NCBI GenBank assembly: GCA_018267285.1
Contig: JAFDYU010000009.1
Span: forward strand, 22,967-86,966
Direction of reading: 5' to 3'
Source of the DNA: Bacteroidota bacterium
GTDB lineage: Bacteria > Bacteroidota > Bacteroidia > Cytophagales > Cyclobacteriaceae
Length of the DNA: 64,000 bases
Shown one piece after another: positions 3,913 to 58,959 of the stretch (positions are counted from its first letter, which is position 1; the number at the start of each line of letters is the position of its first letter). The notes beneath the pieces were generated by a model, which worked only from the letters and a program-made list of their open reading frames with translations, did no database searches and was not told the origin of the DNA. The position numbers were made by a program, and so were the translations under genes.

Positions 3913-3915
3913 GAG

Positions 3916-5142: not shown

Positions 5143-5147
5143 AGCTT

Positions 5148-5822: not shown

Positions 5823-5823
5823 A

Positions 5824-6738: not shown

Positions 6739-6739
6739 G

Positions 6740-7612: not shown

Positions 7613-8469
7613 AAAACAGGAGATTAATTGACTTACCCAAAGAAATTTTCAAAGTCCCTTTTTTAGAAAAAATATTGACACATTTAACCAACAATAAAAA
7701 TCATAAAAATTTTTTTGCTAGGCTCCCTCCACTTAACAAGTCGTACCCCAAAAATTCGATTCGTTACTCAAAACGCAACGAAATAAGCTACGAACTGGAC
7801 ATTAGTGACTATATTGAATGGTTGGTGTACTTCGGCATCTTGATGGAGCCCCATAAATCTCTTTACGGCTTGGCTAAAAGCGGAGATATTGTATTTGATG
7901 TGGGGGCAAACATTGGAGAAACTACTTTTAATTTGGCTCGAACAGTGGGCACTTTCGGAGCTGTTCATTCATTTGAACCAGATCCGTATATTTTCTCAAA
8001 AATATTGAAAAATTACAAATTGAATACATTTGTAAATATTTCACTCAACAACTTTGCCTTGGGCAGCGATCCGAGTGAATTGTGTTTAAGCACGCCCGTT
8101 GAAGATAATCGTGGAGGAACTCGAATACGCCCGACCGATAAATCTGGAAACAAGGTGCCGGTATCTACGGTTGATATTTACGTTTCTGAAAAACAAATAA
8201 AAAAAATTGATTTAATAAAAATAGATGTTGAGGGTTTTGAACATCGGGTGCTGCTGGGTGCAGAAGCTACGCTGAATAAATTCAAACCAAAATTATTTAT
8301 AGAAATTAATGATGACAATTTGCACGAGCAAGGCGATTCGGCAAAAACACTTATAGAAAAATTGTTGAACAATGGTTACAAAATTCAAAATGCCGCTACG
8401 AATGAAGCCGTCACAGAGGCAACCGATTTTCGAAAACATCATTTTGATATTATAGCAACTCATGAGTAG
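7609..8469 (+). CDS. FkbM family methyltransferase (second of a tandem pair)
   Basis: A 286-residue protein with FDVGANIG at about 96-103, a HSFEPDPYIF segment and LIKIDVEGFEHRVLLGAEA, which define an FkbM-type O-methyltransferase. The ATG overlaps the previous stop as ATGA, a sign of translational coupling. It differs from its upstream neighbour over most of its length, so the pair is an old duplication or two independent recruits. It overlaps the sulfotransferase gene by 8 bases. Confidence 0.85.
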   Translation: MKNRRLIDLPKEIFKVPFLEKILTHLTNNKNHKNFFARLPPLNKSYPKNSIRYSKRNEISYELDISDYIEWLVYFGILMEPHKSLYGLAKSGDIVFDVGANIGETTFNLARTVGTFGAVHSFEPDPYIFSKILKNYKLNTFVNISLNNFALGSDPSELCLSTPVEDNRGGTRIRPTDKSGNKVPVSTVDIYVSEKQIKKIDLIKIDVEGFEHRVLLGAEATLNKFKPKLFIEINDDNLHEQGDSAKTLIEKLLNNGYKIQNAATNEAVTEATDFRKHHFDIIATHE

Positions 8470-9289
8470 ACCTTTACTTTGCTATTTTGGTCATCACAAA
8501 TGCGCCTCTACATGGGTTATAGGTATACTCTATGATGTTTGTCATGCATTGGGGCTGAACATCTTTGAGAGGCAAATCATTCTGATGGAAGAACCCTCTT
8601 CGATCATCAACAATATGAATGTCGATTTTTATATTTGTCAAAGTAGCGACTATGAAAAAGTAAAGCCCCTAAACAATCTTCGTGGCTTTCATATCATTAG
8701 AGATCCGAGGGATTTAATTATTTCTGGTTATTTCTCTCACTTACATAGCCATGCAATCGGAAAATGGACTGAATTAAGGTATCACCGGAATAACCTTATG
8801 AAGGTAAATAAGGATGATGGTCTATTCTTAGAGATGGAATTTGATAAATACTTTATCGACCACATCGCTACCTGGAACTACAATGATCCTAATATTCTCG
8901 AGTTAAGATACGAAGATATCTCTCACAATCCAAAAAAATATTTCACACTAATTTTTGAATTCCTTGGAATTTATGGTCAAGTAATTGAGGGTAAACAGCT
9001 TTGGATTAACTCATATGCTAACCGGGTTTTTAATCGTTTGTCATTAGATTATCGATGGAGGCAAGATAAAATGAATGAACCTTTTCTCGATCATTTAATC
9101 GCCAAAAATCATTTCCAAAAACTCTCCAATGGAAGAAGTTATGGTGAAGAAAATCCAAAATCACATTATCGTAGCGGGTTGGCTGGCAACTGGAAATATC
9201 ATTTTAATGAACAGCACAAAAAGAAATTCAAAGGCTTATTTGGTGATCTTTTAGTAAAACTGAACTATGAATCGAATAACGATTGGTGA
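8462..9289 (+). CDS. sulfotransferase domain protein
   Basis: A 275-residue protein. The N-terminal GHHKCASTW at residues 10-18 is a 5'-phosphosulfate binding loop of PAPS-dependent sulfotransferases, and RDPRDLIISGYFSH at about 80-93 is the 3'-phosphate binding motif with its conserved Arg and Ser. LRYEDI further on matches the usual sulfotransferase segment. It should move sulfate from PAPS to a sugar hydroxyl of the glycan, assuming the cell makes PAPS. No PAPS biosynthesis gene is visible here. It is embedded in the glycan operon with overlaps on both sides. Confidence 0.82.
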   Translation: MSRPLLCYFGHHKCASTWVIGILYDVCHALGLNIFERQIILMEEPSSIINNMNVDFYICQSSDYEKVKPLNNLRGFHIIRDPRDLIISGYFSHLHSHAIGKWTELRYHRNNLMKVNKDDGLFLEMEFDKYFIDHIATWNYNDPNILELRYEDISHNPKKYFTLIFEFLGIYGQVIEGKQLWINSYANRVFNRLSLDYRWRQDKMNEPFLDHLIAKNHFQKLSNGRSYGEENPKSHYRSGLAGNWKYHFNEQHKKKFKGLFGDLLVKLNYESNNDW

Positions 9290-10416
9290 TGCTAATGAAT
9301 GAGCTATCTACGAAAAAAGTCGTTTATATTGTTTCCCAAGTTCATAAATCTTTGGCCTTTGAGTGGATTGCTGAAGGCCTGAAAAAAAAATACGATCTCA
9401 CTTTTATTTTGCTCAACGCGCAAGGTTCGCCTCTGGAAGATTTTCTGTTAGCAAAAGGAGTTGAAGTTCGAAGGATAAACTATCGAGGTAAAATAGATTT
9501 TCTAACAGCCTTTATTAAAATTCTTCTTTTTTTTATTAAATCTAAACCTGAAGTTGTGCATGCACACCTTCTCGATGCTCAACTCATTGGTTTGGTTGCC
9601 GCAAAATTAGTTGGTATAAAAAATCGTATTTACACAAGACACAATAGCAACTTTCATCATGTCTATCACCAAAAGGGAATCCTCTTTGACAAGATTAGCA
9701 ACGGATTAGCTACCAAAATTGTCTCCGTTAGCTACGCTACCGATATTACATTAACTCAACTGGAGAAAGTCAATACTTCAAAAATTGTCAAAATACCCCA
9801 TGGGTTTGACATGAAAATTTTTGAACAGGTCCCTTCAGAAAGAAGGGTGGCAATTATAAAAAAGTGGAGCATTACTGACAATAAACCAATTGTTGGGGTC
9901 ATCGCTCGGCATATTGAGTGGAAGGGAATTCAATACATTATTCCCGCTTTTAAAAAATTCTTAAACGAATATCCTTCGGCTACTTTAATTCTTGTCAATG
10001 CAACTGGTCCTTATCATAAAATAATTTTAGAGCTGTTGAACTCTATACCTCGTGATAGATTCATTCTTATCCCATTTGAAGTGGACATCGCAGCCTTATA
10101 TTCAGTTTTCGACTTATATGTGCACACGCCAATAGATACAGTGTGTGAAGCTTTTGGGCAAACCTATATTGAAGCTCTTGCTGCTGGCGTCCCCTCAATA
10201 TTTACGCTGTCTGGAATCGCTAACGAATTTATTGAGCACGAAAAAAATGCCTTAATAGTTCCATTTAAGAATAGTGATGAAATCTACCAAGCTCTTTTGA
10301 GGCTTTGGACAGATATATCATTACGAGAAAAACTTATTAGCAATGGCAGACATGATGTAATTTCGAAGTTTGAATTATCCTCTATGTTGGCGGCTCTGAA
10401 TAAACTTTATGAGTGA
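9283..10416 (+). CDS. glycosyltransferase family 4
   Basis: A 377-residue GT-B protein. VVYIVSQVHKSLAFEWIAEG opens the N-terminal Rossmann domain, VHAHLLDAQ follows, and the donor site reads CEAFGQTYIEALAAGVPSI, the E-x7-E signature of GT4. ATGs at 9283, 9289 and 9295 are all possible; 9283 overlaps the preceding stop by 7 bases, and 9295 begins MNELSTKK. The enzyme should use a nucleotide-activated sugar with retention. It overlaps the next gene by 8 bases. Confidence 0.87.
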   Translation: MVMLMNELSTKKVVYIVSQVHKSLAFEWIAEGLKKKYDLTFILLNAQGSPLEDFLLAKGVEVRRINYRGKIDFLTAFIKILLFFIKSKPEVVHAHLLDAQLIGLVAAKLVGIKNRIYTRHNSNFHHVYHQKGILFDKISNGLATKIVSVSYATDITLTQLEKVNTSKIVKIPHGFDMKIFEQVPSERRVAIIKKWSITDNKPIVGVIARHIEWKGIQYIIPAFKKFLNEYPSATLILVNATGPYHKIILELLNSIPRDRFILIPFEVDIAALYSVFDLYVHTPIDTVCEAFGQTYIEALAAGVPSIFTLSGIANEFIEHEKNALIVPFKNSDEIYQALLRLWTDISLREKLISNGRHDVISKFELSSMLAALNKLYE

Positions 10417-11293
10417 GCTTCTCTTTAGCATAGTTATCCCCACTTACAACCGATCGGGTTTTATCCGTAAAACGATTGATTCCGTTTTGAATCAATCTTT
10501 TCAAAATTTTGAAGTCATTGTAGTTGATGATGGGAGCTCTGACAATACTGAAGAAGTTGTGAGATCGATAAATGATCAGAAAATTTGTTATTACAAAAAA
10601 CAAAATGGCGAACGAGCTGCTGCTAGAAACTTTGGTGCTGCTTTTTCGAAGGGTCATTTCATTAATTTTTTAGATTCGGATGATTTACTGTACCCTAATC
10701 ACTTAGATGTGGCAACAAAATTCATCGAAAAAAATAAAACCGTAGATGCCTTTCATCTTGGTTATGAAATCAAAAATAATATTGGTGATATTCGATCGAT
10801 AAATAACATCCGATCGGTTAATAATCGAATTGTAAATGGGAATATGCTAAGTTGTAACGGTGTTTTTATCAGACGCAATGTTCTTTTAAAAAATCCATTC
10901 AATGAAGATCGGTCATTGTCTTCACTTGAAGATTGGGAGCTCTGGATAAGATTAAGTGCTCGATACCTTTTTTTAAATGACAATTCGATAACATCAACAA
11001 TTGTCCAGCATAATAGCAGAAGTGTAATGACTGTCGATATTTCTAAAATAAAGACCAAAGTTGATCGATTTGTTCATTACGTCACCAATGATGAGCAGAA
11101 TAGAAGATATTACGGCCAAAGGTTAAACAAGGCAGTGGCGAGTGCTTTCACTTACGCCTCGCTTCATCTTGCTATGGCTAATGAAAGCAAAAGAGAGGTT
11201 TTCCATTATTTATGGAAAGGAGTGAAAACTTACCCGGGTGAAATATTGAAAAAACGTTTTTTGGTTATTATGAAAAAACTAATTAGCCATTAA
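10409..11293 (+). CDS. glycosyltransferase family 2
   Basis: A 294-residue GT-A enzyme beginning FSIVIPTYNRSGFI, with VVDDGSSDNT and the metal site LDSDD near residue 91. A later LEDWELWIRLS segment is the usual ED catalytic region. This is the common EPS/O-antigen type of transferase. It overlaps the GT4 gene before it and stands 6 bases before the next. The acceptor sugar cannot be predicted. Confidence 0.9.
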   Translation: MSELLFSIVIPTYNRSGFIRKTIDSVLNQSFQNFEVIVVDDGSSDNTEEVVRSINDQKICYYKKQNGERAAARNFGAAFSKGHFINFLDSDDLLYPNHLDVATKFIEKNKTVDAFHLGYEIKNNIGDIRSINNIRSVNNRIVNGNMLSCNGVFIRRNVLLKNPFNEDRSLSSLEDWELWIRLSARYLFLNDNSITSTIVQHNSRSVMTVDISKIKTKVDRFVHYVTNDEQNRRYYGQRLNKAVASAFTYASLHLAMANESKREVFHYLWKGVKTYPGEILKKRFLVIMKKLISH

Positions 11294-11299
11294 ATCAAT

Positions 11300-12511
11300 A
11301 TGAAAAACATATTGATTTTGACATATTGGAGTTACCATGATGCGCTTATCCAAACGTACACGCTACCTTATGTAAAAATCATTCTTAAAAACTTACCCAA
11401 GGGCAGCAAAATCTATTTGCTCACGTTGGAAAAAGATGGCCAAGCGCTTAAATCTCCCAAACGTTCTGAAATCGAAACGGCTTTTAAGAGTGATGAAATC
11501 GAGTGGCTGCCGATTCAATATCAACCCTTTGGTTTTTTTGCTTTCTTCATGTGGACCTCGGCTTCTTTAAAATTAAGCCTGCTTATTCTCCAAAAAAAAA
11601 TATCTGTAATCCATTGCTGGTGTACACCGGCCGGAGCCATTGGCTACCTTTTAGCAACTCTGCTAAATCGTAAACTCGTTATTGATAGTTACGAACCGCA
11701 TGCCGAAGCAATGGTTGAAAACGGAACCTGGACGAGAAAAAGTCTGGCTTTTCGATTGTTATTTTGGTTGGAAAAAAAACAGACTCAAAAAGCGGAGTTC
11801 ATCATTGCTGCCACAAAGGGAATGCGTGAATATGCTCAGGAAAAATATGAAGTATCAATCCATCAATATTTTGTAAAGCCAGCGTGTGTTGATTTGAATT
11901 TGTTTTCTATAAAAGACATTAAAAATGAGAAGCTATTGGAGGAGCTCAATCTGTCTGGGAAAATAGTTTGCGTCTATGCTGGTAAGTTTGGCGGCATCTA
12001 TCTGGACAAAGAAGTATTTGACTTCTTAAAAGTCGCATCAGAATACTGGGGCGAATCTTTTCGGGTTTTGATCTTAACTAGTCACAAACGAAATGAAATT
12101 GTTAGTTTCTGCAATTCTGTCGGCTTGTCGCCAGAAATTGTCATCTCACTTTTTGTAGACCACAAGCAAGTGCCAACATATCTCGGTCTCGGGGATTTTG
12201 CGATGACCCCGGTTAAACCCGTAAACACAAAAAGATTCTGTACACCAATAAAGGATGGCGAGTATTGGGCTTTAGGTTTGCCCGTGGTAATTCCAGCTAA
12301 TATTTCGGATGATTCTGCTATAATTGAAAAAACAAAAATCGGAGTTGTATTAACCCGGCTAGAATACTCCGCTTACCGAGAAGCCATAGAAAAAATGGAT
12401 AAACTTCTTCATCAGGAATCTGATAACCTATATAGTAAGATCAGATCTGTTGCCGAACAGTATAGAAGTTTCGATATTGCCGAGAAAGTATATGCTTCCG
12501 TATATGCTTAA
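11300..12511 (+). CDS. glycosyltransferase, GT-B fold (GT4-like)
   Basis: A 403-residue protein with an N-terminal domain starting ILILTYWSYHDALIQT, an HCWCTPAGAIGYLLA segment and DSYEPHAEAM. The C-terminal domain has CVYAGKFGG, a typical GT4 beta-alpha turn, and ends with a KDGEYWALGLPVVIPANI stretch in place of the standard E-x7-E. It is a GT4-like enzyme with a divergent donor site. It ends the tightly packed glycan run; the 54-base gap to the next gene may hold a weak promoter. Confidence 0.78.
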   Translation: MKNILILTYWSYHDALIQTYTLPYVKIILKNLPKGSKIYLLTLEKDGQALKSPKRSEIETAFKSDEIEWLPIQYQPFGFFAFFMWTSASLKLSLLILQKKISVIHCWCTPAGAIGYLLATLLNRKLVIDSYEPHAEAMVENGTWTRKSLAFRLLFWLEKKQTQKAEFIIAATKGMREYAQEKYEVSIHQYFVKPACVDLNLFSIKDIKNEKLLEELNLSGKIVCVYAGKFGGIYLDKEVFDFLKVASEYWGESFRVLILTSHKRNEIVSFCNSVGLSPEIVISLFVDHKQVPTYLGLGDFAMTPVKPVNTKRFCTPIKDGEYWALGLPVVIPANISDDSAIIEKTKIGVVLTRLEYSAYREAIEKMDKLLHQESDNLYSKIRSVAEQYRSFDIAEKVYASVYA

Positions 12512-12565
12512 TAAACACAATTTCGTTTTTTTGCATTGATTTTTAATTACCTTATACTGTAAAGT

Positions 12566-13498
12566 ATGACCAAAATTCTTATCACCGGTGGCGCTGGTTT
12601 CATTGGTAGTTCTCTTGCTGAACGCCTTCTTGCCACTGGCCAATATTTTGTCGTTGTAGTTGACAACCTACTAACCGGGAGCTTAAAAAAAATTCCAAAC
12701 CATGAGAATTGCCGGTTTATCAAATGTGATGTGAACAACTATAATGACATCTCATCCATCATGACGAGTTATCAGTTTGATTATGTTTTTCACTATGCTG
12801 CAGTGGTTGGTGTTAATCGCACCATCGAAAATCCGATCATGGTGCTCAACGATTTACAGGGAATAAAAAACGTTCTCGATTTGTGTAAAAATACAGGTGT
12901 GAAGCGCATATTCTTTTCTAGCTCATCAGAAGTTTATGGCGAACCAGTGGAACTGCCACAGCATGAGGAGACAACACCGCTGAATTCAAGATTGCCTTAT
13001 GCCGTTGTGAAAAACGCTGGAGAATCATTTTGTAAATCCTACCAGAAAGAATTCGGACTTGATTATACCATCTTCAGATTCTTCAATACGTACGGCCCCA
13101 AGCAAAGCACCGATTTTGTAATTTCTAAATTTATAAAAGCTGCATTAAAAAATCAACCGATAACTGTTTACGGAAATGGAAATCAAACAAGAACATTTTG
13201 CTTTATTGACGATAACACAACTTGCACGCTTAAAATACTTGAAGAAGGTCACGCTATCAATGACGTAATCAATATTGGGAGTGAAATAGATATTACCATT
13301 TTGGAGTTGGCTGAATTAATCATTGCCTTAACTAAATCGAGCTCCAGAATTGAGTTTTTGCCCCCTCTTAAAGAAGGAGACATGACGCGAAGACAGCCCG
13401 ACTCAAAGAAAATGAAAAAAATAATTGGCAACAATTTCATTTCATTAGAAGATGGACTGAAGAAAATTCTGCAAACAGAAATGGCTTTCTTGTATTAA
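12566..13498 (+). CDS. NAD-dependent epimerase/dehydratase (extended SDR, nucleotide-sugar enzyme)
   Basis: A 310-residue extended SDR. It has the NAD loop GGAGFIGS at residues 8-15, an SSSSEVYGE serine strand near 119-126, and the catalytic Tyr145-x3-Lys149 in YAVVK. The FFNTYGP and TRTFCFIDD motifs are those of UDP-glucuronate decarboxylase, dTDP-glucose 4,6-dehydratase and UDP-glucose 4-epimerase relatives. It therefore supplies a nucleotide sugar for the glycan, but which one cannot be decided from sequence alone. It stands 16 bases before the large PKD gene. Confidence 0.85.
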   Translation: MTKILITGGAGFIGSSLAERLLATGQYFVVVVDNLLTGSLKKIPNHENCRFIKCDVNNYNDISSIMTSYQFDYVFHYAAVVGVNRTIENPIMVLNDLQGIKNVLDLCKNTGVKRIFFSSSSEVYGEPVELPQHEETTPLNSRLPYAVVKNAGESFCKSYQKEFGLDYTIFRFFNTYGPKQSTDFVISKFIKAALKNQPITVYGNGNQTRTFCFIDDNTTCTLKILEEGHAINDVINIGSEIDITILELAELIIALTKSSSRIEFLPPLKEGDMTRRQPDSKKMKKIIGNNFISLEDGLKKILQTEMAFLY

Positions 13499-48230: not shown

Positions 48231-50771
48231 TTAATTAAGTCTTCCTCGGGCAATGAACTTTCTCAATGTGTTCTCTACAGGAAGAACCAATAACGCAATT
48301 CCAACCTGAACGAAAAAATCAATTACTGGCGATGTTTTTAAAGTTACAAAAGCATTAACGGTTACCGACAGGAATTGAATAATCAAAATGATGGTAAGCA
48401 TGGAGAGCAACTGACTCAACAACTTGTATTTTGAATTGCCTGCGCTTAGTCGAATAGATAAAAACACGAGTATTCCTAAAACGACAACCTCCAAGAGATA
48501 AAACCATGATCGTTTCCAGTAGGGAGGCTCAACCTCCAAGGTAACTTCTTCCACAGCCGAAGTTTTCCCCATAAGGTCTCTCGTCTGCACGGCCAGTCTG
48601 TATTTCCCGGGCGGCAGATAAGAAAAATTGACAATGTTGTTGGAGGTTGACCACGGTGTCCAATCGCTGCTCTGGCCTTTAACCTGATACCGATACTCTA
48701 CCGCTTTCATTCCCAGATAATCGGGCTGTACAAACTCGAACGAAACCGTGCTTTCCAGTTGGCTCACCATTATCGAGCGCGATGGTTTTAGTCTGTTTTG
48801 CTGGCCGCGTACTTCGCGCAAGAAAAGCGGGTAGCCGTTTGGATTTTGATCTGCTTGTTTCCCTGAAAATTTGTAGAGCTCATTATTCGCGGTAATCACC
48901 CACAGACTTTCATCTTCAGCCAAAGAGATGAACCGTATGTTCGAAAAGAGCCCAAGCCATTGTAGCTTAAGTGCAGCTTGCATACGCGGATCAACCGTGC
49001 GCCACCGGTGGCCATCGTGAAACCAGAAATACCCTGCCGAAGCAAAATATTTTTTAGGGCCTGGCAACGAATCGTATTTTTCAAAATGATTTTTACTAAT
49101 GTCGTATCTAAAAAAACTTCCGGCTGTAGCTACGTAAACTTCAGTACCGTAAGCCAAACCTACGCTTTCATCAAAGGATGGATTTGAAAAAGGTATTCGT
49201 TCGACCGCGGTGATCCCTCCATCCACGGTTTCAATTTTCGTAGCGTTGGTTCTGCCGCATAGCCATATATTCTGTAGCTTATCTTCAAAAATGTAACTCA
49301 CATAATCGCGAATGGTATCCAACAAATGCGTTTCCTGCCAGCTGTTCGCTGTATATGTATATGTTTTTATCTCGTCTTTAAATGTGCTGACCAGAATTTG
49401 ACCCAACGACTTCGACTTAAAAGCCGCATGTACCGGAGAAAATGTAACAGCATCGGTTTTTGTGTTTGTTACAGCAGCCAATCCAAAATCGCCAACTGCC
49501 AAAAGTTGATCGTCTGCTAAAATCAACTGAGAAACCTTTCCGGAGATGCCCTCAACTTTTTTGTAGGCATACACGGTAGACTTAATAATTTGCTTTGCGG
49601 GTTGATCTTGTTTTTTCGAATTGACTCGGTTTCTTGAAGATGAAATCAATCCTTTTTTTGTACTTGACTCCTTCGTTTCTTTTTCTCCGGTCTTTACTTC
49701 CTGATCAATTTCTTGCTGCACAAGACAATATAAGCCGAGGGTTGTACCTACATATGTTTTTCCTTGATATGTTTTGGCGCAAAGTAAATTTCCTTCTAAC
49801 CCAGAATAATGGCTGTACGATTTAAACGGAATGAATGGGGTTACACGGGAAAATCCATAGTCATGCGCTACCCACAGGCCTTGGTTACGATCTGCAAACA
49901 TGGAGTACACTTCGTTATCGGGTAGGCCGGTATAGTAATTGGTAATCTCTTTTGTTTCGCCTGTTTGTGGATTAATGAAAATTACTCCACCATGCAAGGT
50001 ACCTACTGCCACAAGCGCATCATTTAGCCAGGCTGCGTTTACGGGTATGTTCCTTATCAGGAAATCTTTATCAGAAACATTTATTTCTTTTAATCCTGAG
50101 CTACTTGCTAAAAAAAATCTTGTGCCCTCCACACAGAGTAAAGTGATGGGGGTTGAAGAATCGGAGGATGACGCAAAGTCTATGGACAGTTTATCCGTCC
50201 ATGGAAAGTTAGGCTCTACTAATTTATTGTCTTCAATTTTGTAATAACCATTTACCGTCTTAACAAAAATCTTACCCGCAATCTCCATCAACCCCTCAAA
50301 CCCTTCGTTGGGTTTGGCTTTCATTGTTGCCTCTACATTCCCTGAAAGAGAAAGAATAAAAACCGATTTAGTGTTAGCAAAATAAATCTTGTTGTTGTGC
50401 GAGAGGCACGCGAAAATTTGAGTTGCGTCCGGTAGGTTTTGAGATAACGAATGATACTCCTTCACATTGTCGTTGCCAATGACCAGTTTGCCAAAGCCAT
50501 CGTACCCTCCCACAAAAACATCTTGCCCGGCTGCAGCTATTGTAAGTGTTGGTCCCGGGGTTGTGATTAGCCCCCAATTGCGCCCGTCAAACTCAAGTAC
50601 ACCACGCTTGTTTGCAAAATAGATAACTCCTGTCTCTCCCTGTGCCATGGCAAAGGTGTGGTAATCAAAGCGCTCATCTTGCGGGGTGTAGTGTGAAATA
50701 AAGTAATTGCCCGACTGAGCCTGGCAAAAGTTCGCAACCAAAACAAAGACAAAGAGTAGTTTTACTTTCAT
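48231..50771 (-). CDS. propeller/Y_Y_Y-domain membrane protein without output domain
   Basis: An 846-residue protein: signal peptide (LLFVFVLVANFCQAQ), then two-component-regulator-type propeller repeats (GVIYFANKRGVLEFDGRNW, GLWVAHDYGFSRV, NIWLCGRTNATKI) to about residue 640. A Y_Y_Y domain (~650-745, ending LEVEPPYWKR) and a C-terminal membrane part with three or more hydrophobic helices (~748-840) follow. A lysine-rich hydrophilic insert of ~45 residues (EIDQEVKTGEKETKE and on) interrupts the propeller near residue 370. In hybrid sensors this layout leads into a histidine kinase and an AraC domain; neither is present here. The function is unknown. Confidence 0.82.
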   Translation of the reverse strand: MKVKLLFVFVLVANFCQAQSGNYFISHYTPQDERFDYHTFAMAQGETGVIYFANKRGVLEFDGRNWGLITTPGPTLTIAAAGQDVFVGGYDGFGKLVIGNDNVKEYHSLSQNLPDATQIFACLSHNNKIYFANTKSVFILSLSGNVEATMKAKPNEGFEGLMEIAGKIFVKTVNGYYKIEDNKLVEPNFPWTDKLSIDFASSSDSSTPITLLCVEGTRFFLASSSGLKEINVSDKDFLIRNIPVNAAWLNDALVAVGTLHGGVIFINPQTGETKEITNYYTGLPDNEVYSMFADRNQGLWVAHDYGFSRVTPFIPFKSYSHYSGLEGNLLCAKTYQGKTYVGTTLGLYCLVQQEIDQEVKTGEKETKESSTKKGLISSSRNRVNSKKQDQPAKQIIKSTVYAYKKVEGISGKVSQLILADDQLLAVGDFGLAAVTNTKTDAVTFSPVHAAFKSKSLGQILVSTFKDEIKTYTYTANSWQETHLLDTIRDYVSYIFEDKLQNIWLCGRTNATKIETVDGGITAVERIPFSNPSFDESVGLAYGTEVYVATAGSFFRYDISKNHFEKYDSLPGPKKYFASAGYFWFHDGHRWRTVDPRMQAALKLQWLGLFSNIRFISLAEDESLWVITANNELYKFSGKQADQNPNGYPLFLREVRGQQNRLKPSRSIMVSQLESTVSFEFVQPDYLGMKAVEYRYQVKGQSSDWTPWSTSNNIVNFSYLPPGKYRLAVQTRDLMGKTSAVEEVTLEVEPPYWKRSWFYLLEVVVLGILVFLSIRLSAGNSKYKLLSQLLSMLTIILIIQFLSVTVNAFVTLKTSPVIDFFVQVGIALLVLPVENTLRKFIARGRLN

Positions 50772-50848
50772 TTATTAAACACTTGTTTTTAAGCCGATAA
50801 ATTTACGGTTTCATTTCAAAAGTATTACCTGTGCCTTTGAGCATGAAA

Positions 50849-50880
50849 AAGGGCAAGCCTGAAAAATCAGGCTTGCCCTT
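50849..50880 (-). terminator. strong intrinsic terminator of the caspase operon
   Basis: A perfect 14-bp stem (50849-50862 with 50867-50880) and a 4-base AAAA loop, flanked by A and T runs on both sides, so active in either direction. It lies 18 bases after the caspase gene stop on the minus strand. Confidence 0.92.
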
Positions 50881-50898
50881 TTTAGATTTCGGCTTAAG

Positions 50899-52098
50899 CT
50901 ATTTGATCACGAAGACAAAGTCGCTGCCCGGTGCGTTGTCGCCAAACTCCCCGGCACGCGGCTGCGGCTTCAGTGCCTCCACATAGGTGTTGATCTCGCC
51001 CAGCGACAGCAGCATGTCCTTGCCCCCGCGGCTGCGCAGCGCCTCCAGGAACTTCCGCGCAAACGGTGAGTTCATCCCCGGCCGCCCATCGGGCACATAC
51101 TCCTTGCCACCGGAGGTCAGGTATCTCCTCGTCTTGTACGTAAGCTTGCGCGTCACCATCTCGGCCTGTGAGGCTTCCTTGTACGCTTCGTCATCCAATC
51201 CACGGTGGGCTATGGCCTGGTCGAACGTGCCCCCGAAGCACACGTCCATCGCCAAAAAGATATGCTCGCACGGTATGTTGTTAACTATGGAGCGCAGACG
51301 GTTGTGCGACAGGTACGTGGTCTTTGCCACATCGTTCGCCTGTGACTCTTTGGTCACCACGAAGCCCTCCCCGAAGGTCTGGTCGAACTGCCCGTGACCC
51401 GCAAAGAATATGAACAGCTGGTCCAGCGGTTTGTATTTCTTCTCCGCATACTCGCGCAGTTTCTTCAGGATGTCCGACTGCGTGCCGCCCTCCAGCACCT
51501 CCACTTTGTACCCGTAGTTCTTCTTCAGCTCTTCGGCTATCATCCGCCCGTCATTGACCGGGTTCACCAGGTCCGGCCAGTGCTCATAGTCGTTGGTGGT
51601 GAACAGTACCGCATAGTCTGTCCGGTCCAGCTTGCTCGCATCGGTGAGCCCTGTCGTGCCCACGCGTACCGACCGGTAGCTCACTGTCTTCACCCCGTCC
51701 TCGTTCTCGGCTATGATCTCCAGCACGTTCTCCCCGTCCATCAGGGTCAGGTTCTTCTCGATCACCGCCTTGTGCCTCTCCGATTCCGTGGCCGGCTCGA
51801 TGTTCAGCATCCCCCGCGAGGCTGACTCCGGTGTCTCTTTTATGATGATCTGGATGTTCTTCAGCGGCTTGGCCGATTCCACTTCGATCTTGATCTTGTA
51901 CTTTGCCTCGCCCACGTAATTGCTCTCGGCCGTTGGCGTGATCCAGTTGATCACCGGGATCACCGAGTTGGCCAACTTCTTGGGGTCGCTGAAGTCCACT
52001 TCAAATTCGTTCGTGCGGGTGCTCACGTTCTGCGACTTCGCACTCGAAATCACTAACAGCACCAACACCCATAGCGTTAAGTTGAGTCGTGTTTTCAT
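50899..52098 (-). CDS. exported caspase-fold peptidase (C14 family)
   Basis: From the ATG at 52098 (MKTRLNLTLWVLVLLVISSA) the product has 399 residues with a signal peptide ending near AKSQ; the open frame runs 40 codons further upstream into the preceding gene. Residues ~40-150 form an Ig-like domain, and the caspase domain spans ~155-395. The catalytic His235 is in FFAGHGQFD and Cys287 in MDVCFGG. There is no T9SS tail. The predicted place is the periplasm, unusual for bacterial caspase homologues. The gene is very GC-rich (43 of 60 bases in 51001-51060). It follows the giant gene by 11 bases and is last in the operon. Confidence 0.88.
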   Translation of the reverse strand: MKTRLNLTLWVLVLLVISSAKSQNVSTRTNEFEVDFSDPKKLANSVIPVINWITPTAESNYVGEAKYKIKIEVESAKPLKNIQIIIKETPESASRGMLNIEPATESERHKAVIEKNLTLMDGENVLEIIAENEDGVKTVSYRSVRVGTTGLTDASKLDRTDYAVLFTTNDYEHWPDLVNPVNDGRMIAEELKKNYGYKVEVLEGGTQSDILKKLREYAEKKYKPLDQLFIFFAGHGQFDQTFGEGFVVTKESQANDVAKTTYLSHNRLRSIVNNIPCEHIFLAMDVCFGGTFDQAIAHRGLDDEAYKEASQAEMVTRKLTYKTRRYLTSGGKEYVPDGRPGMNSPFARKFLEALRSRGGKDMLLSLGEINTYVEALKPQPRAGEFGDNAPGSDFVFVIK

Positions 52099-54105
52099 AT
52101 TGGTTGGGTTTATTTCTTCAAAATTATTTTCCCGGCATGTGCCTCGGACCCATTCTGGCCGCCCACTACCAGCCGGTAGATGTACACCCCATCGGCTGCA
52201 CGGTCTGAGGCATCCCACTCGGTGCTGTAAAAGCCAGCCGTGTACCGGCCGTTCACCAGTGTGGCCGCCTTGTTCCCCAGGATGTCGTACACGTCCACGG
52301 TCACTTGGTAGCCCCCGCTGTTTTCGGGCAGTGTAAAGCCGATCACGCTCTTGCCCGATGTGGGGTTCGGGTACGCTTTCCCAAGGGTGACACGGCTGGG
52401 TTTGATCTTCGCCTCAAGCCCCGTTCCGTAATAAACTTTAAACCGGGTCGAAACTCCCTTGTCGAACGCGTACCGGTCGCTGGCCCGCATGTCCACCAGC
52501 TCCTGCAGCGCCTCATCGAACAGGTAGAGCTCTTTGCCCCCCTCGCCAAACGCGGTGTTGTCCCAGCTCAAACTGGCCTGCCCGTCTAGGTTCGAATCAA
52601 CGGTAAACTCCCACGTGTGTTCGTCCGCGGTCGGGACGATGTCGCGGTCCAGGTTTTTGGCAAAATGCTCGGGGTGCGGAAAGTTCATCTCCACGTAGTC
52701 AATGAACCGCGGGGCGGTGACATCGTCAAAATCGTCCACGCTTTCCGAGGCCTGTGGGTTCATGCCCACGCCTCCCAGGGTGGACGTGAGGTTGCCCACG
52801 GTAAGCGAGATTGGGGCAACCCAGTTATCGGCATCTATGTCGGATGGGAGTGCCCCCTCCATTCGGCCGCCTGCCCCCGCTGCCGTAATCGGGAATTTGA
52901 CGGTCACTTTGTTGCTCCCCGAGTTAAAAACAAAACCGCCTTCATAGGCTTTCAATTGTGTCGTCACCGCGTATGTCCCGTTGAAGTTTTTTATGCTCGC
53001 CACGCCCGTTGGGTTGCCGCTCGCGGCAAGCACTTCCGCCCACGTCACCGTGAAGGGGTATGGGTTTCCGATCAGGTTCCAGCCAGGCTGAAGGTCTTTG
53101 CTGAACTGGTTCTGTTTGTTGTAGTTGGGCGAGGTGGCCCCCTCTATCGCTATGGTCGGGGGGTTCAGTGCATTGATGAAATAACCTACGCCCGTGGACA
53201 GGGTCGTGAAGTCGGCCGGATACTCCGCCCAACTGCTCTGATCCTTGTAGGTGAGCAGCCTCCACTTGCTCTTGTCCGGTGCCCCGAGCTCGTCAAAGAT
53301 CGTGGACACTTTGTTGTCGCTCAGTGTGTACGGAACGGCACCGATCCGCCAGTCCGCCACCTGCCCCGTGCCCGGCAGGGCTGGGAACACCGGGTTGGTG
53401 GCCGTTGAAGATGTTGCGTAATTTATGTACGAATAGTAGTAGTTGGAGGCGTCCGATGGACTCCGCCCTCTGTTGTTGCTGGGGTCTGAGGCCTTAAAGT
53501 AAAATTCTATGCCTATCGGCCCGTAGGCCGACTCCTGGATGGTTGCTTCGTATTTACTATTTGAGGCATTTAGAACAAGGGCCACTGAATCATACCCGTT
53601 CTTTGTCGTGATCTTCCGGTAGTACATCTTGGCGGGTGCCACGCCCACGCTGTCGGTTATGCCAACTGAAACGACTTTCGACCCGGACCCTTTCACTAGG
53701 TTGTCGGCTGTGTACGAGAACACCGGGGCTTTCTTGTCCGGGTAGTTCACCGTCTGGAACGTCCAGTCCGTGGTCCCCGTAACCAGGGATACCACTGCGC
53801 TGTCAGCTGTCATCAGCGCGTTGGCGTCATACTGAACATAATAGCTTATGTTGTGCTTGAGGGCGGACGGCAGTGTGTAGGTCAGGGTGTCCCCCGACTG
53901 GACTCCTGCCGATGCGTCCACTTGCGCTGTGGGCGCGGAGGGGGACGCGCTGTTGTACAGCTTCAACTGCTTGCCCGCAACGCCCACCATCGGCTCGCTG
54001 AAAATCACCTTCAGCTTGGTGTCCACCGCTATGCCTGTGCTGCCCTTGGCCGGAACTTCTGCGGCAACTGTGGGGGTCTGCTTCGTGGTGAAACGCCACG
54101 TGGAA
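50899..54105 (-). other. GC-rich block spanning the caspase gene and the 3' third of the giant gene
   Basis: Sampled rows here have 57-72% G+C (43/60 at 51001, 37/60 at 52201, 34/60 at 53041), against 38-47% in rows of the upstream part of the same giant frame (23/60 at 55561, 28/60 at 55201). The step falls near 54095-54110, at the end of the first Big_5-like domain (around the NNSTWRF codons). The gene at 58134-58865 is GC-rich again (39/60 at 58201). Confidence 0.85.
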
Positions 54106-57100
54106 TTATTGGTAATACCTGCCCATGCATTCCCAAAAATATCCGTAAACGCTCCATTGTCAACTATCACAAAATAGGTTTTATTGAAAGAGAGTAAACC
54201 AGTAGATGTAAAGGTGAATGTTTTATCATTTTGCATACCAGTACTCACATCAATTGTCGCTATTGGCAAAATAGGATTTGCTAAATCAAATATTTTTAAA
54301 AATTTTCCTACCACTGGCACAGCTGCCTGGTCGAAGGTGATACTCAGTGCGGGTTTTACACTTGCTCCGGTTGCATTGTTAGTTGGGCTCAAGGCTGTAA
54401 CGGCCGGGGGGGTTGTATCAGAAGGGATTACTATGTTAGCGCTCTTTCTTACCGGTGAATTGATGATGGCACCATAGGCATACCCGTTGTATTCGTTGAC
54501 AACAACATCATTAAAATAGTTGTTACCCCCCGAACCCAACCCCACATTTTGCCAGCTTTGGCCTTGATCTCTGGAAAGCCAAAGGTTTCCGCCAGAAACC
54601 GGGATAAAGTAATAATTCAGGCTGGCTATAATCAGTTTGTTGCCTGCCGGTGTGGATTGTTTAGTCCATGTTGACCCATCTGTGGTACTGTAAATCAGAC
54701 CCGTCTGATCGTATAGAAAAATTTTATTTTGAAAAAATTCTACGTTGACCGGGTTCTTAACCAAATTGATTTTATTGGCAGAACCAAACAATAACTGATA
54801 GGCTTCATTAGAATTGCTTGTATAATTGTACACTGTAAAATAGCTAATGCCATTTTGATCAACCGCAATATCATTAATATAAAAATTACTTGGCATACCT
54901 GTTGGGTTCAGTTCTACCCAAGAGGTGAGGTTGTTCGAATAATAAATTTTGTTGTTACTACACCCATAATACGTGGTTCCATCCGCAGTAACTACTTGTT
55001 GTAAGCCGGGCAAATTCGAAATGAGAAGACTCCATGTGTTTCCTCCGTCTGTAGTCTGAAACAAACTGTCTGGCCTGAACGCAAGCAGCGTACCATCGGG
55101 TTTACGGGTAAACCCAATAAAATGATGAGAGGTGTATGTATTCCAATTTTGAAAATCAGTCGAATAATAATTATTGCTGCCTTCTGTTGCGTACAACTTT
55201 GATGGAGCAGAGAGTTCGAGATCGCCAAGATTATCTTTGGGAATCCCTGTATTGCGTTCTGTAAACGTAGCTCCATCATCATCAGAGGTTGATATACCTT
55301 GGTTAGTTCCGGCAACCAAGCGAGTGCCTACCCAGCTTATATATGTAATTCTGCTAGCTGTTTGATGCCACGTCCAGTTAATACCACCATTGGTAGATTT
55401 TAAAAAACCATATTGGCTGTTGATCCGAGCAGGTACGTACAGCCCTCCCGATGGTGATACAAACACTTTATTATTTATATAATAATTGGCAGGGAAATCT
55501 CCGGTTATAGATACCCAGGTGGCCCCATTATCTGATGACCGAAAAACGCTATCATATGTGCTGAAATACAGATTGTTTGTACCTCCTGATATGGCATAAT
55601 TAGTAATGGTAGGGGAAGGAAAGGTTGCTGTACTCCATGTCGCTCCGCGGTCTGTGCTTTTCACCACTTTATATGTAGAAGATGTGTTGTCATAATAAGT
55701 TACAAATATTCCGGGAGTGGCTGTAGTCGTCACCTGAAGATCTTGAATACTTGCGTTATTCAAAACATATTTCGCAGTGCCAAATGAGCTGCCTCCGTTA
55801 GTCGAAACATATATTTTGCTATCTTGTGTAGCCATAATCAGATCGCCATTTGTACAATGTCTGATTTGACCTGGCCATCCAAAATTTTCGCTCCCGTTTT
55901 TTAATGTCCAGCCTGCCCCATTAACAGAAGAAATGATTTGGTTGTATGTGGCACCGTACAACGTGTTATTCGCTGTATCCATAGCCATATCGTTAATATA
56001 TGAGCCTTGGTATGAAAAATCAGTCCAGGTTGAAAAAGTTGTTGTCTTATAAATTGAGTTAGTGGTTAGCGTATATGTATTGCTAGCTTTATCCGTTAAG
56101 ATTTTTTGTATGTATTGACCCCATGGGCCATTGAGTGCTATCCAATTAAAGTTAATATAAGGGGGAGGGGCTGCCGGCACAAGTGAAGTTACAACATCTT
56201 TCACGGCAGGTATATTCACTCCACCTCCATAATAAGTAGTTGTGCTGGCATCATAGTCGAGCGCACTAATATATCCATCTGTGCTCGGTAGTGCAACGCT
56301 ACTCCAACTTTGGCCATCGTCAGCACTAACGTATAGAGCACCATAAGTACTAGCACAAATTCCATTGCCATTAGGAAGTGGCAATAATTTATTGTTTGAA
56401 AAAAGTGACGTGTTCCAGGTGGTACCTTGGTCTGAGGTATAATAGATAGCGTAACCAGAAGAAAGGTAAAGTTTGTTGTTGTTTACAAAAAAGTTGTTAG
56501 GGTAAAAATAATTCTGATCATTGGGTGTGAGTGTGAAAGTTAACAAGGTAGCTGAGGCCGTAGATGCATTAGCAGCACCGGAAGCCAAAACAATCTTGTA
56601 AACTTCATATATACCATTGGTGCCATTATAAACTAGTGCGTAGATATTGCCTGCGTTGTCTTGAGCCAAACCTTGTGAGCTATAGTTTGAAGGCATGCCG
56701 GTTACGGTAATATTATTCCATACGGATCCGTTTGTTGATGAGGCGAGCTGTTTGCCATTGTAGGAATTTGCAATACCATACATATACCCGGTATTAAAAG
56801 TGGTGTTGAAAGCAGTATAGTAAAAGTACTCCGTAGTGGCAGACCAGCCCACTCCGCTGTTACTTGAATACTGAAGCGGGTTATATCCAATTCCTAAAAT
56901 TGTATTGCTTCCAAAGGGGGTCTCAACCAGGCGATAAACTTGTGAGGTATAATTATTCAGGTAATTCCAGGTAGCTCCTTTATCATCCGAATACCAAGCC
57001 CCATTTGAAGAGTACCCTGTACGTGCATAAATGCGGTTTATTGTAGCCGGGGCTACAGCACCTGTAACTACCAAATCCTGAGCCGTGGCGAGGTTAATGC

Positions 57101-58097
57101 CACCCGTTGCAAATGACCAACTCGACAAAGTATTGGTTGTTAAAAAGACACCGTCTCCGTTGGTCCCTGCAAATGCTTTAGTAGCATTAACAAATTGAAG
57201 TGCTGTTACATTAGACCCTCCGTAATTACCCGATGGCCAGGTAGAAAGCGTTGTCCAAGATGCTCCGCTTGAGGCGGTTGTAGTAAAATATATTTTACTG
57301 TAGCCATTGTTGACGAAATATAACCCGGTTGGAGAGTTTGCCCAATACCCATTAAACGATGATTCTGCTATTCCCGTCTTTGCCGAAGACCAAGATGTGC
57401 CATTATATTTAAGAATATCATTAGTGCTGGTAATTGGGTTGGTATAGTATGCAGTGGCAAAAATGGTTGTGCCGAGTACCGCCAACTGCATCGAACTACC
57501 GCTTGAGGCATCGGCAAGAATTGTAGTTACGTTACTACTTGTCCATGGATTAGTGCCTGGGTTGGAATGTTTTTTAACTCCTTGCGAATCTGAAAAATAA
57601 AGATCTCCGTTTCCGGTAGCCACGGCATTACCAACATATTGCGTGCTAATTTGCGTCCAAGTGTGGCCGGAGTCGGTGCTTACGTATACTCCCCCGTATC
57701 CATACGCAGCATAAACTCCTGAGTTCACCTTAATCATTTTGTAGGCGCTATTAAGCATGCCGGCACTATCTACACGTGCCCAATTTGCTCCTCCATCCGT
57801 GGATGAAAACAGTTGGTAATAGTATAACGCGTAAAGGGTGCCACCATCAATCATTAGATCGCTGATATATAGATTTGATGGAGTGGTGGGCACAATTTTT
57901 GTCCAGTTGGTGCCATCGTTCGAGGTTACAAACAGACCGCTGTTAATTACTGCATAGGCTTTGCTGTTAGGCACATCTAATTCCAAGTCGTTAATATTAG
58001 CCCCGGGTGGTCCGTTTAAAGCCGTGAACTGAGATTGGCCATTAACTCTAATGGCTATGATTAACACACAGATCAGCAAATAAAATCTTCTTATCAT
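52110..58097 (-). CDS. giant T9SS-secreted double-propeller protein
   Basis: A 1995-residue protein with signal peptide (FYLLICVLIIAIRVNGQ). Residues ~25-648 and ~649-1225 are two related modules, each opening with an ALNGP-type strand and rich in BNR/Asp-box turns (STDGGANW, SDDKGATW, SADDGQSW, STDRGATW, SSDNGATW, SRDQGQSW). Two Big_5-like Ig domains follow (~1226-1335 and ~1336-1445), then a ~450-residue beta-rich region with GWNLIGNPYPF, and finally a T9SS type A sorting domain starting KAYPNPTSGKS (~1905-1995). It is expected at the cell surface. It sits between a small anchored protein and an exported caspase in one operon, and its base composition changes sharply at about residue 1332. 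Confidence 0.9.
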   Translation of the reverse strand: MIRRFYLLICVLIIAIRVNGQSQFTALNGPPGANINDLELDVPNSKAYAVINSGLFVTSNDGTNWTKIVPTTPSNLYISDLMIDGGTLYALYYYQLFSSTDGGANWARVDSAGMLNSAYKMIKVNSGVYAAYGYGGVYVSTDSGHTWTQISTQYVGNAVATGNGDLYFSDSQGVKKHSNPGTNPWTSSNVTTILADASSGSSMQLAVLGTTIFATAYYTNPITSTNDILKYNGTSWSSAKTGIAESSFNGYWANSPTGLYFVNNGYSKIYFTTTASSGASWTTLSTWPSGNYGGSNVTALQFVNATKAFAGTNGDGVFLTTNTLSSWSFATGGINLATAQDLVVTGAVAPATINRIYARTGYSSNGAWYSDDKGATWNYLNNYTSQVYRLVETPFGSNTILGIGYNPLQYSSNSGVGWSATTEYFYYTAFNTTFNTGYMYGIANSYNGKQLASSTNGSVWNNITVTGMPSNYSSQGLAQDNAGNIYALVYNGTNGIYEVYKIVLASGAANASTASATLLTFTLTPNDQNYFYPNNFFVNNNKLYLSSGYAIYYTSDQGTTWNTSLFSNNKLLPLPNGNGICASTYGALYVSADDGQSWSSVALPSTDGYISALDYDASTTTYYGGGVNIPAVKDVVTSLVPAAPPPYINFNWIALNGPWGQYIQKILTDKASNTYTLTTNSIYKTTTFSTWTDFSYQGSYINDMAMDTANNTLYGATYNQIISSVNGAGWTLKNGSENFGWPGQIRHCTNGDLIMATQDSKIYVSTNGGSSFGTAKYVLNNASIQDLQVTTTATPGIFVTYYDNTSSTYKVVKSTDRGATWSTATFPSPTITNYAISGGTNNLYFSTYDSVFRSSDNGATWVSITGDFPANYYINNKVFVSPSGGLYVPARINSQYGFLKSTNGGINWTWHQTASRITYISWVGTRLVAGTNQGISTSDDDGATFTERNTGIPKDNLGDLELSAPSKLYATEGSNNYYSTDFQNWNTYTSHHFIGFTRKPDGTLLAFRPDSLFQTTDGGNTWSLLISNLPGLQQVVTADGTTYYGCSNNKIYYSNNLTSWVELNPTGMPSNFYINDIAVDQNGISYFTVYNYTSNSNEAYQLLFGSANKINLVKNPVNVEFFQNKIFLYDQTGLIYSTTDGSTWTKQSTPAGNKLIIASLNYYFIPVSGGNLWLSRDQGQSWQNVGLGSGGNNYFNDVVVNEYNGYAYGAIINSPVRKSANIVIPSDTTPPAVTALSPTNNATGASVKPALSITFDQAAVPVVGKFLKIFDLANPILPIATIDVSTGMQNDKTFTFTSTGLLSFNKTYFVIVDNGAFTDIFGNAWAGITNNSTWRFTTKQTPTVAAEVPAKGSTGIAVDTKLKVIFSEPMVGVAGKQLKLYNSASPSAPTAQVDASAGVQSGDTLTYTLPSALKHNISYYVQYDANALMTADSAVVSLVTGTTDWTFQTVNYPDKKAPVFSYTADNLVKGSGSKVVSVGITDSVGVAPAKMYYRKITTKNGYDSVALVLNASNSKYEATIQESAYGPIGIEFYFKASDPSNNRGRSPSDASNYYYSYINYATSSTATNPVFPALPGTGQVADWRIGAVPYTLSDNKVSTIFDELGAPDKSKWRLLTYKDQSSWAEYPADFTTLSTGVGYFINALNPPTIAIEGATSPNYNKQNQFSKDLQPGWNLIGNPYPFTVTWAEVLAASGNPTGVASIKNFNGTYAVTTQLKAYEGGFVFNSGSNKVTVKFPITAAGAGGRMEGALPSDIDADNWVAPISLTVGNLTSTLGGVGMNPQASESVDDFDDVTAPRFIDYVEMNFPHPEHFAKNLDRDIVPTADEHTWEFTVDSNLDGQASLSWDNTAFGEGGKELYLFDEALQELVDMRASDRYAFDKGVSTRFKVYYGTGLEAKIKPSRVTLGKAYPNPTSGKSVIGFTLPENSGGYQVTVDVYDILGNKAATLVNGRYTAGFYSTEWDASDRAADGVYIYRLVVGGQNGSEAHAGKIILKK

Positions 58098-58133
58098 ACT
58101 ATAAATTTTTTCATTGCACTGCTCATTGTTTAA

Positions 58134-58865
58134 TCAATTATTTGGAAACGGTGGCAACGTAATATCCGGCTTGCCCTTTTCTCCGCCTCCCCCTTTCGCC
58201 ACCGTGGCCAGCGCCCCGGCTACCGCCACCACCGGAACCACTTTCAACAACAACGGGACTTTGGGTGCCACCTTGAAATAATCGGTGTACAGCACGTATT
58301 CCGTTGTCTTCGAGTCCGATATCTTCAACCGGTAGTCGCTGCCCTTCTTCGCACTGGACGGCACGTTCAACGTGTACGTTCCGTTGTTTGGTATGTTCAT
58401 ATCGCCCGCAACCCGCTCGTTCCCTTTATACAATTCGATGTGGATGGGGTCGGTGCTGCCCGGTTTCCATACTATGTTGTACAGTTTGCCCCTCTTGTAT
58501 TTTTTCTCCGTGTCGAAACCCTGGAGCTTCACAAATGGCACATACACTTTGCCCCTGAGCTCCAATGCCAGCTTGCCTTTGTAGCCCCCGTATTCCTGCA
58601 TGATGTTCCACTCTATCTTTTTGTTCAGCCCCGGTTTCACTTCCTGCCCTACATCGCCTTTTACTTTAGTGAGGGGGGCGGTGAAATTGTCTTTCGAGGC
58701 AAAGACGTTGAGCAAAAATTCGTGGCTGGCGTTGGAGTCGTCCAGGTCATAGTAAATGATGACTTTCTCTCCGTTCAATTCGATTTTTTTTACCGTTACG
58801 CTTTGCGCTTGTGTGTGCATAACACAGGCAAAAGCGACAGCCAAGGCGGGAAACAGCCGTTTCAT
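58134..58865 (-). CDS. small exported protein with Kre9/KNH-like domain and C-terminal anchor
   Basis: A 243-residue protein: signal peptide (LFPALAVAFACVMHTQAQ), an N-terminal beta domain with KKIELNGEKVIIYYDLDD, and a segment (~125-200) with YKRGKLYNIVWKPGS, IHIELYKGNE, NGTYTLNVPSS and DYRLKISDSK. This last segment resembles the Kre9/KNH Ig-like domain found in yeast wall proteins and many Bacteroidota. A hydrophobic helix near 206-224 precedes a Gly- and Pro-rich tail. It is first in the three-gene operon, GC-rich like the caspase gene, and 36 bases before the giant gene. The role is unknown; a docking or assembly partner is a guess. Confidence 0.72.
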   Translation of the reverse strand: MKRLFPALAVAFACVMHTQAQSVTVKKIELNGEKVIIYYDLDDSNASHEFLLNVFASKDNFTAPLTKVKGDVGQEVKPGLNKKIEWNIMQEYGGYKGKLALELRGKVYVPFVKLQGFDTEKKYKRGKLYNIVWKPGSTDPIHIELYKGNERVAGDMNIPNNGTYTLNVPSSAKKGSDYRLKISDSKTTEYVLYTDYFKVAPKVPLLLKVVPVVAVAGALATVAKGGGGEKGKPDITLPPFPNN

Positions 58866-58888
58866 AGGTTGGTGTGTGGTTTAAACAA

Positions 58889-58918
58889 CTAAATTACAGA
58901 TTTAATCCAATATTTCAA
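58889..58918 (-). promoter_or_regulatory. putative promoter of the Kre9-like/giant/caspase operon
   Basis: On the minus strand TTG (58918-58916), a 19-base spacer, and TAATTTAG (58896-58889) fit the Bacteroidota -33/-7 pattern with one mismatch. The ATG at 58865 is 23 bases downstream. Confidence 0.5.
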
Positions 58919-58959
58919 GGTGAGGTAAGTCTCAACTAATGATGATCTTGAAAATGAAT

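Follow-up and report, generated by a model that had tools for sequence, protein, structure and literature searches.

A sharp composition step inside a giant surface-protein gene, at the border between its head and a recurring tail, caspase and anchor module

In Porphyromonas gingivalis, the type A sorting domain of cargo proteins of the type IX secretion system (T9SS) is cleaved by PorU, a peptidase of family C25 (PMC4560394, PMC4804311). Prokaryotic caspase homologues often carry N-terminal helices, possibly signal peptides (PMC3501461, PMC4933709), and their operons include 16 with cell-surface functions, while 70 of 217 were left without a function (PMC3501461). GC content and recombination have been linked in bacteria as well (PMC4450053). 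Here, we describe a locus of three genes on the minus strand of a 64,000-nucleotide stretch of DNA (the window) from a Cyclobacteriaceae bacterium (GCA_018267285.1, contig JAFDYU010000009.1, positions 22,967 to 86,966), in which base composition changes sharply within the open reading frame (ORF) of a giant protein, followed by a caspase gene and preceded by a gene for an immunoglobulin (Ig)-like protein that we call the anchor. On the reading for which we see even chances, this is a surface-protein operon that combines an exchangeable, private head with a conserved cassette for export and processing, the compositional seam being the border between the two.

The features are as follows (GC3, G+C at third codon positions; aa, amino acids):

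54105..58097, minus strand: head of the giant protein (residues 1-1331), with a putative signal peptide (by eye), Sortilin/VPS10-type propeller repeats and the first Big_5 domain (1227-1338); host-like codon usage, GC3 0.38
54047..54107, minus strand: seam; codon usage switches after codon 1331 (range 1330-1350), where the first Big_5 match ends
52110..54104, minus strand: tail of the giant protein (residues 1332-1995), with the second Big_5 domain and a conserved region of ~560 aa comprising an Ig domain, a beta-rich middle and a T9SS type A-like sorting domain; GC3 0.74
50899..52098, minus strand: predicted secreted caspase (C14), 399 aa, with a putative signal peptide (by eye), an N-terminal domain and a caspase domain with H236/C288; GC3 0.82
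58134..58865, minus strand: 'anchor' gene, 243 aa, with a putative signal peptide (by eye), a Kre9/KNH-like Ig domain, a C-terminal helix and a short Pro-containing end; GC3 0.68, first ~30 codons host-like
50772..50898, no strand: intergenic stretch of 35% GC at which the GC-rich block stops; a terminator-like inverted repeat is visible by eye

The giant gene is a single open frame running from 58097 to 52110 and encoding 1995 aa, with a hydrophobic N-terminus (by eye). Pfam finds PF15902 in five stretches of the head and PF13205 in two stretches of the giant protein, and the second Big_5 domain in the tail was identified through an internal match of 36%. The Ig domain of the anchor matches PF10342 (5.6e-9), and its predicted model (predicted local distance difference test score, pLDDT, 81) has a helix at 205-223. 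With 62.2 bits (7.9e-17) against a curated cut-off of 21.4, the caspase domain matches PF00656, and the H236/C288 dyad, which we take to be the catalytic pair of a C14 caspase, is invariant in 16 of 16 aligned caspases (numbering follows window:50902-52101, one codon ahead of the ATG). Domain and dyad place the protein in C14.

Position of the step and the outlying parts

Overall GC amounts to 57.8% in the tail, 57.6% in the caspase gene and 51.0% in the upstream anchor gene, as opposed to 41.8% in the head; the four neighbouring genes have a GC3 of 0.43-0.55. Per 100 codons, GC3 of the giant frame stays at 0.31-0.46 to about codon 1300 and then at 0.64-0.79. Modelled on synonymous codon usage, with a 'rich' class trained on the codons past 1400 of the same gene and on the caspase, the frame changes after codon 1331 (window 54104); the range within 2 log units spans codons 1330-1350. 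An untrained search for GC3 steps in 185 ORFs of more than 600 codons arrived at this codon as well, with GC3 going from 0.38 to 0.74; the giant ORF ranked first, with 7.6 ahead of 6.7 and 3.5. The step is therefore as real and sharp as the original prediction had claimed from hand counts, and it lies where it had been placed, beside the border of the two Big_5-like domains. Since G+C at four-fold-degenerate sites shows the same contrast (head 0.39, tail 0.77, caspase 0.86), amino-acid composition is not its cause. At these sites, the head has A.32, C.22, G.17 and T.29, the tail A.15, C.33, G.44 and T.08, the caspase A.10, C.26, G.61 and T.04, and the anchor A.17, C.31, G.46 and T.06.

The intergenic DNA at 50772-50898, 58098-58133 and 58866-58959 has 25-35% GC. 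Together with the host-like first 30 codons of the anchor, this delimits two GC-rich blocks, one from around codon 30 of the anchor to its end and the other from codon 1332 of the giant gene through the end of the caspase, which flank a host-like head. The borders in composition thus coincide with those between head and cassette.

Which part is unusual was the point on which the original prediction erred: it had treated the AT-rich head as the oddity, acquired by a GC-rich operon. The head is ordinary for its host, given a mean of 42.4% GC for the window, and the outliers are the tail, the caspase and the anchor, so the idea of a foreign head is wrong. Across 1210 ORFs of this genome (1.66 Mb, about half of it), GC3 is 0.457 +/- 0.059, and the top two values are those of caspase and anchor. 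A row of 65% GC noted earlier at 58.13-58.87 kb proved atypical of the anchor gene as a whole, which is nevertheless elevated in GC3.

Compositional heterogeneity also occurs elsewhere. Positions 5001-13000 of the window, at 35-39% GC, lie below most of it. A second gene of this genome with a strong GC3 step, at 3-4829 of contig C10 (L093, G000:C10), has 0.84 in its first 276 codons and 0.39 in the remainder; its product, cut by the contig start, is built of repeats and has a sorting-domain match. A surface-type protein of 2,406 codons (G000:C18:93076-100293, L120/L239) contains an internal GC-rich patch with a 100-codon maximum of 0.75; within the patch lies a 258-bp repeat array (81% match) with a GC3 of 0.70 versus 0.41.

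A recurring trio behind changing heads

The named loci come mostly from metagenome-assembled genomes (MAGs) of the Cyclobacteriaceae and Cytophagales (25 of 27 named relatives carry MAG in their titles), together with the isolates Chryseotalea sanaruensis and Chryseosolibacter histidini. The tail is present in 56 of 116 genomes searched, own included (1e-10), and the head in 26 of 116; caspases occur in 45 of 62 genomes of the genus (1e-30) and in 39 of 390 of the order.

Counting a caspase or anchor gene as linked if it lies on the same strand at most 3.5 kb from the tail ORF, we find a caspase with 20 of 21 tail ORFs and an anchor with 19 of 21 at loci L064-L083, where the sole tail without a caspase (L080) sits at a contig end. 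The figures are 19/19 and 13/19 at L188-L207, which were chosen for a caspase listed nearby, and 16/16 and 12/16 at 15 of the 27 named loci likewise picked by caspase. Even among L208-L227, chosen mostly for the absence of a strong listed caspase, 12 of 21 tail ORFs have a caspase-type gene and 10 an anchor. Here, the genes counted belong mostly to a second caspase subfamily, which joins the same tails at L209-L214, L216, L217 and L226 and several members of which lack the N-terminal domain and one of which (L226) is on the opposite strand. Gene order differs between loci (ATC, TAC, TCA) while the trio remains linked, and relatives bear one to several copies of it.

In the 11 giants scanned with Pfam (ten of L188-L207 plus L074), the heads are unrelated to one another, ranging from LVIVD, fn3 arrays and FG-GAP_2 to Sortilin with fn3, FG-GAP_3 with UnbV and Sortilin, and an SBBP match below cut-off. 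These data support a conserved module of tail, caspase and anchor that recurs behind unrelated heads in relatives. The predicted conserved operon with a variable head thus stands for the relatives, as do the unrelated heads expected at loci sharing the tail and caspase; the high identity expected of the shared part does not, with tails only 27-51% identical to that of the window. Full-length collinear homologues, which had been named as evidence to the contrary and count as such in part, exist in five genomes (G045, G026, G036, G040 and G030), the head/tail identities being 58/48, 37/38, 37/44, 36/46 and 34/40%.

No other genome showed the step: across 19 loci (of L064-L083; L080 cut by the contig end, L081 split, L082 without a start), none of 20 homologous giant ORFs has a comparable GC3 step, L074 and L077 rising mildly near the end. 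A paralogous operon of G045 (L188, G045:C17, 5746-10368) shows a milder rise, from ~0.39 in the head to 0.52-0.68 in the tail. In G027 (L081), the giant gene reads as two ORFs (4404-8939 and 8983-10281), the break near the head/tail border being either real or an assembly error, and at L222 of G072 (3643-8229), from another family, anchor domain and tail are fused in one ORF with no caspase in the 15 kb examined. The operon is flanked by recG and a propeller gene at 12 of 21 loci, the window included (L078 with one extra ORF between); at the other nine, recG, the propeller gene or both are not in the stretch examined. In the window, this neighbour (48231-50771) encodes a Y_Y_Y/Reg_prop propeller protein of 846 aa and is found beside the operon in many relatives.

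Members of the trio also diverge together, distances over 42 loci being correlated at 0.85 for tail and caspase, 0.86 for tail and anchor and 0.92 for caspase and anchor (Mantel). Head and tail trees conflict: in approximately unbiased (AU) tests, head data reject the split of the tail tree (p-AU 2e-61), and tail data reject a clade of the head tree (p 0.035). For the window lineage, the head tree has window and G045 as sisters, a pair that the tail data do not reject (p-AU 0.32), so plain descent is possible and a recent swap of the head in this lineage is not demonstrated. The RecG tree, which does not include G040 and G003, pairs the two as well; the anchor groups with G040 (support 94), the propeller gene is closer to G040 and also to G003, and the caspase falls among its expected relatives. 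Tandem operons of G040 (L065) have caspases with 94% aa identity beside giants with 34%, rising over the last ~180 codons, and those of Chryseotalea (L176) have caspases with 96% aa identity, and 87% at four-fold sites, beside partial giants with 43%. Near-identical caspases next to diverged giants point to recombination inside the module.

Several observations weigh against the reading of a dedicated export and processing cassette. The sorting-domain match of the window giant reaches 19.7 and 25.0 bits, under the Pfam cut-off of 27. At L208-L227, 7 of 19 tail ORFs with at least 1.5 kb of downstream sequence have no caspase, including L218 (G033), and caspase-less tails also occur within the same genus; L220 and loci of other families (L222-L224, L274, L275) have no caspase in the stretch examined. 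Among the 12 counted there, the third gene of L215 is not C14 by Pfam and the caspase of L225 is a piece of 148 codons. Conversely, a caspase and a weak anchor accompany a tail-less giant of 929 aa at L206 (G006:C3, 9552-11530). Shared species history enters into the Mantel values, the groups for the AU tests were named after the trees had been seen, and hidden paralogy could also produce the conflict between head and tail trees. Finally, modularity holds in relatives and not within this genome, where the original prediction had looked for further copies of tail and caspase; it has one of each, plus a caspase relative of 38%.

Cause of the GC-rich parts

Two explanations are kept, of which import is slightly ahead, if somewhat short of an even chance. 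Anchor, tail and caspase would have been replaced by alleles of an unsampled, GC-rich close relative, leaving a native head too divergent to recombine. Their codon usage is foreign to the host, as the GC3 ranks of caspase and anchor illustrate, and the four highly expressed host genes found favour T-ending codons. The compositional border is the module border and the intergenic DNA remains AT-rich; moreover, the tail branch of the window is long (0.59 vs 0.35-0.42 in G045, G040 and G036), and the anchor groups with G040 when the head groups with G045. Yet the search for a donor returned no GC-rich version, the top caspase GC3 being 0.66 among 64 loci measured (fetched loci only, as opposed to the 45 genus and 39 order genomes with caspases), and no whole ORF of similar codon usage in the loci examined from other genomes. 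The caspase is 84-89% identical to relatives of normal GC and placed among them, and none of the three parts has an excess of AT>GC changes at codon positions 1 and 2, where private changes (AT>GC/GC>AT) number 3/2 in the caspase, 20/20 in the tail and 11/10 in the anchor. In the GC-rich relatives G055 and G039, unlike this locus, C roughly equals or exceeds G and ATA codons are rare.

Recombination-linked GC enrichment, akin to GC-biased gene conversion (gBGC), is the more tentative of the two: parts shared by paralogous cassettes would have been repeatedly converted, sparing the private head, with the other copies lost or unassembled. It would fit the observation that the GC-rich parts are those common to paralogues, the homogenised tandem caspases of G040 and Chryseotalea, and the reported link between GC and recombination (PMC4450053). 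The GC-rich patches in the C10 and C18 giants speak for it, too, as self-similarity is higher in their GC3-rich windows (mean best identity 0.71 and 0.86) than in the GC3-poor ones (0.46 and 0.56). However, this genome has one copy only and no repeats at the locus, and high GC is not a feature of the homogenised caspases in G040 and Chryseotalea. Tandem Repeats Finder detects no array in the C10 gene, and across 10 coding repeat arrays (three here, seven in relatives) the GC3 of the array departs from that of the remaining gene by -0.11 to +0.29, with no trend. The caspase has also gained G from C (C>G 18, G>C 4 relative to G045), which symmetric gBGC does not predict; for the tail, the same comparison, which leaves codon constraints aside, gives 17 and 12.

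A chimeric assembly in a metagenome bin is improbable. The genome is a draft of 25 contigs, and most of the named relatives are titled MAG, but the frame is intact across the seam and collinear with five genomes, the trees place tail and caspase with the relatives expected, and the anchor forms a separate GC-rich patch in a genome with two more elsewhere. Least plausible is selection on codon usage for the expression of tail and caspase: the absence of a shift at codon positions 1 and 2, which makes the change essentially synonymous, would suit it, but EF-Tu, EF-G, RpoC and L11 here have T at 0.31-0.44 of four-fold sites as opposed to 0.04-0.08 in tail and caspase, a step in mid-gene is hard to account for, and relatives have no comparable one.

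Proposed working and relation to known systems

Taken as an operon of exchangeable head and conserved cassette, the locus may work as follows. The cassette would comprise the last ~560 residues of the giant together with a caspase exported by Sec and an Ig-like protein anchored in the membrane. The T9SS would carry the giant through the outer membrane by way of its C-terminal sorting domain, a route compatible with the 22 sorting-domain matches of this genome (19 over cut-off) and its C25 proteins (three over cut-off), one of which, at 369 bits, is presumably PorU-like by its length. The anchor could hold or present the common tail on the periplasmic side, and the dedicated caspase could trim or release the giant at the tail irrespective of the head, so that the head would face outside and the cassette would do export and processing. 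Because the caspase alone among enzymes accompanies the tail in most contexts within the genus, it is likely a tail-specific peptidase. In this lineage, the cassette parts and not the head would have come from a foreign source or undergone recombination, leaving them with G/C-ending codons.

A further-reaching proposal, which we consider doubtful, is that the trio forms a dedicated, head-independent machine for surface display, with a common tail onto which any head could be grafted. The caspase would serve, in addition to PorU, as a peptidase specific to this cargo that sorts or releases it, the membrane Ig protein would dock the tail, and the seam would show that cassette and head were inherited and recombined separately. 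Many bacterial caspase homologues have no substrate assigned to them; a secreted caspase tied to one tail despite changes of head, gene order and locus would point to its likely substrate. The seam offers a natural marker of how giant surface genes are assembled, and it illustrates that base composition can shift abruptly within one gene at silent sites.

The components of the trio are known families, and a description of the trio itself was not found in the literature searched, which excluded subscription papers. A polymorphic toxin system was considered and rejected, as the C-terminus is the conserved part and the adjoining genes encode a caspase and a propeller protein; Pfam scans of four window proteins show neither a toxin nor an immunity domain. 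A PADLOC defence caspase model matches the window caspase in one stretch (17.7 bits, 4e-4).

Relative to T9SS cargo and PorU, the difference lies in a separate C14 caspase gene that adjoins the cargo gene and diverges with its tail, in a genome that has C25 proteins too. The C14 domain with its H/C dyad is shared with prokaryotic caspase homologues and metacaspases; an operon of T9SS cargo and Ig-like partner is not among the operons described in section 13 of PMC3501461. Polymorphic toxin systems with caspase releasing peptidases likewise combine large, modular secreted proteins with caspase processing and exchange of one end, but in them the variable end is the C-terminal one and the processing caspase usually forms an internal domain (PMC3482391), whereas at this locus variation lies in the N-terminal head and a gene of its own encodes the caspase. 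The surface proteins of P. gingivalis are also domain mosaics, shaped by rearrangement and allelic exchange, yet this is exchange between strains of one species, and the abstract describes no linked caspase module (PMC5266723). Lastly, bacterial gBGC resembles our case in tying locally high GC to recombination (PMC4450053); what sets this locus apart is a step in GC3 from 0.38 to 0.74 within one gene and a caspase in which G exceeds C.

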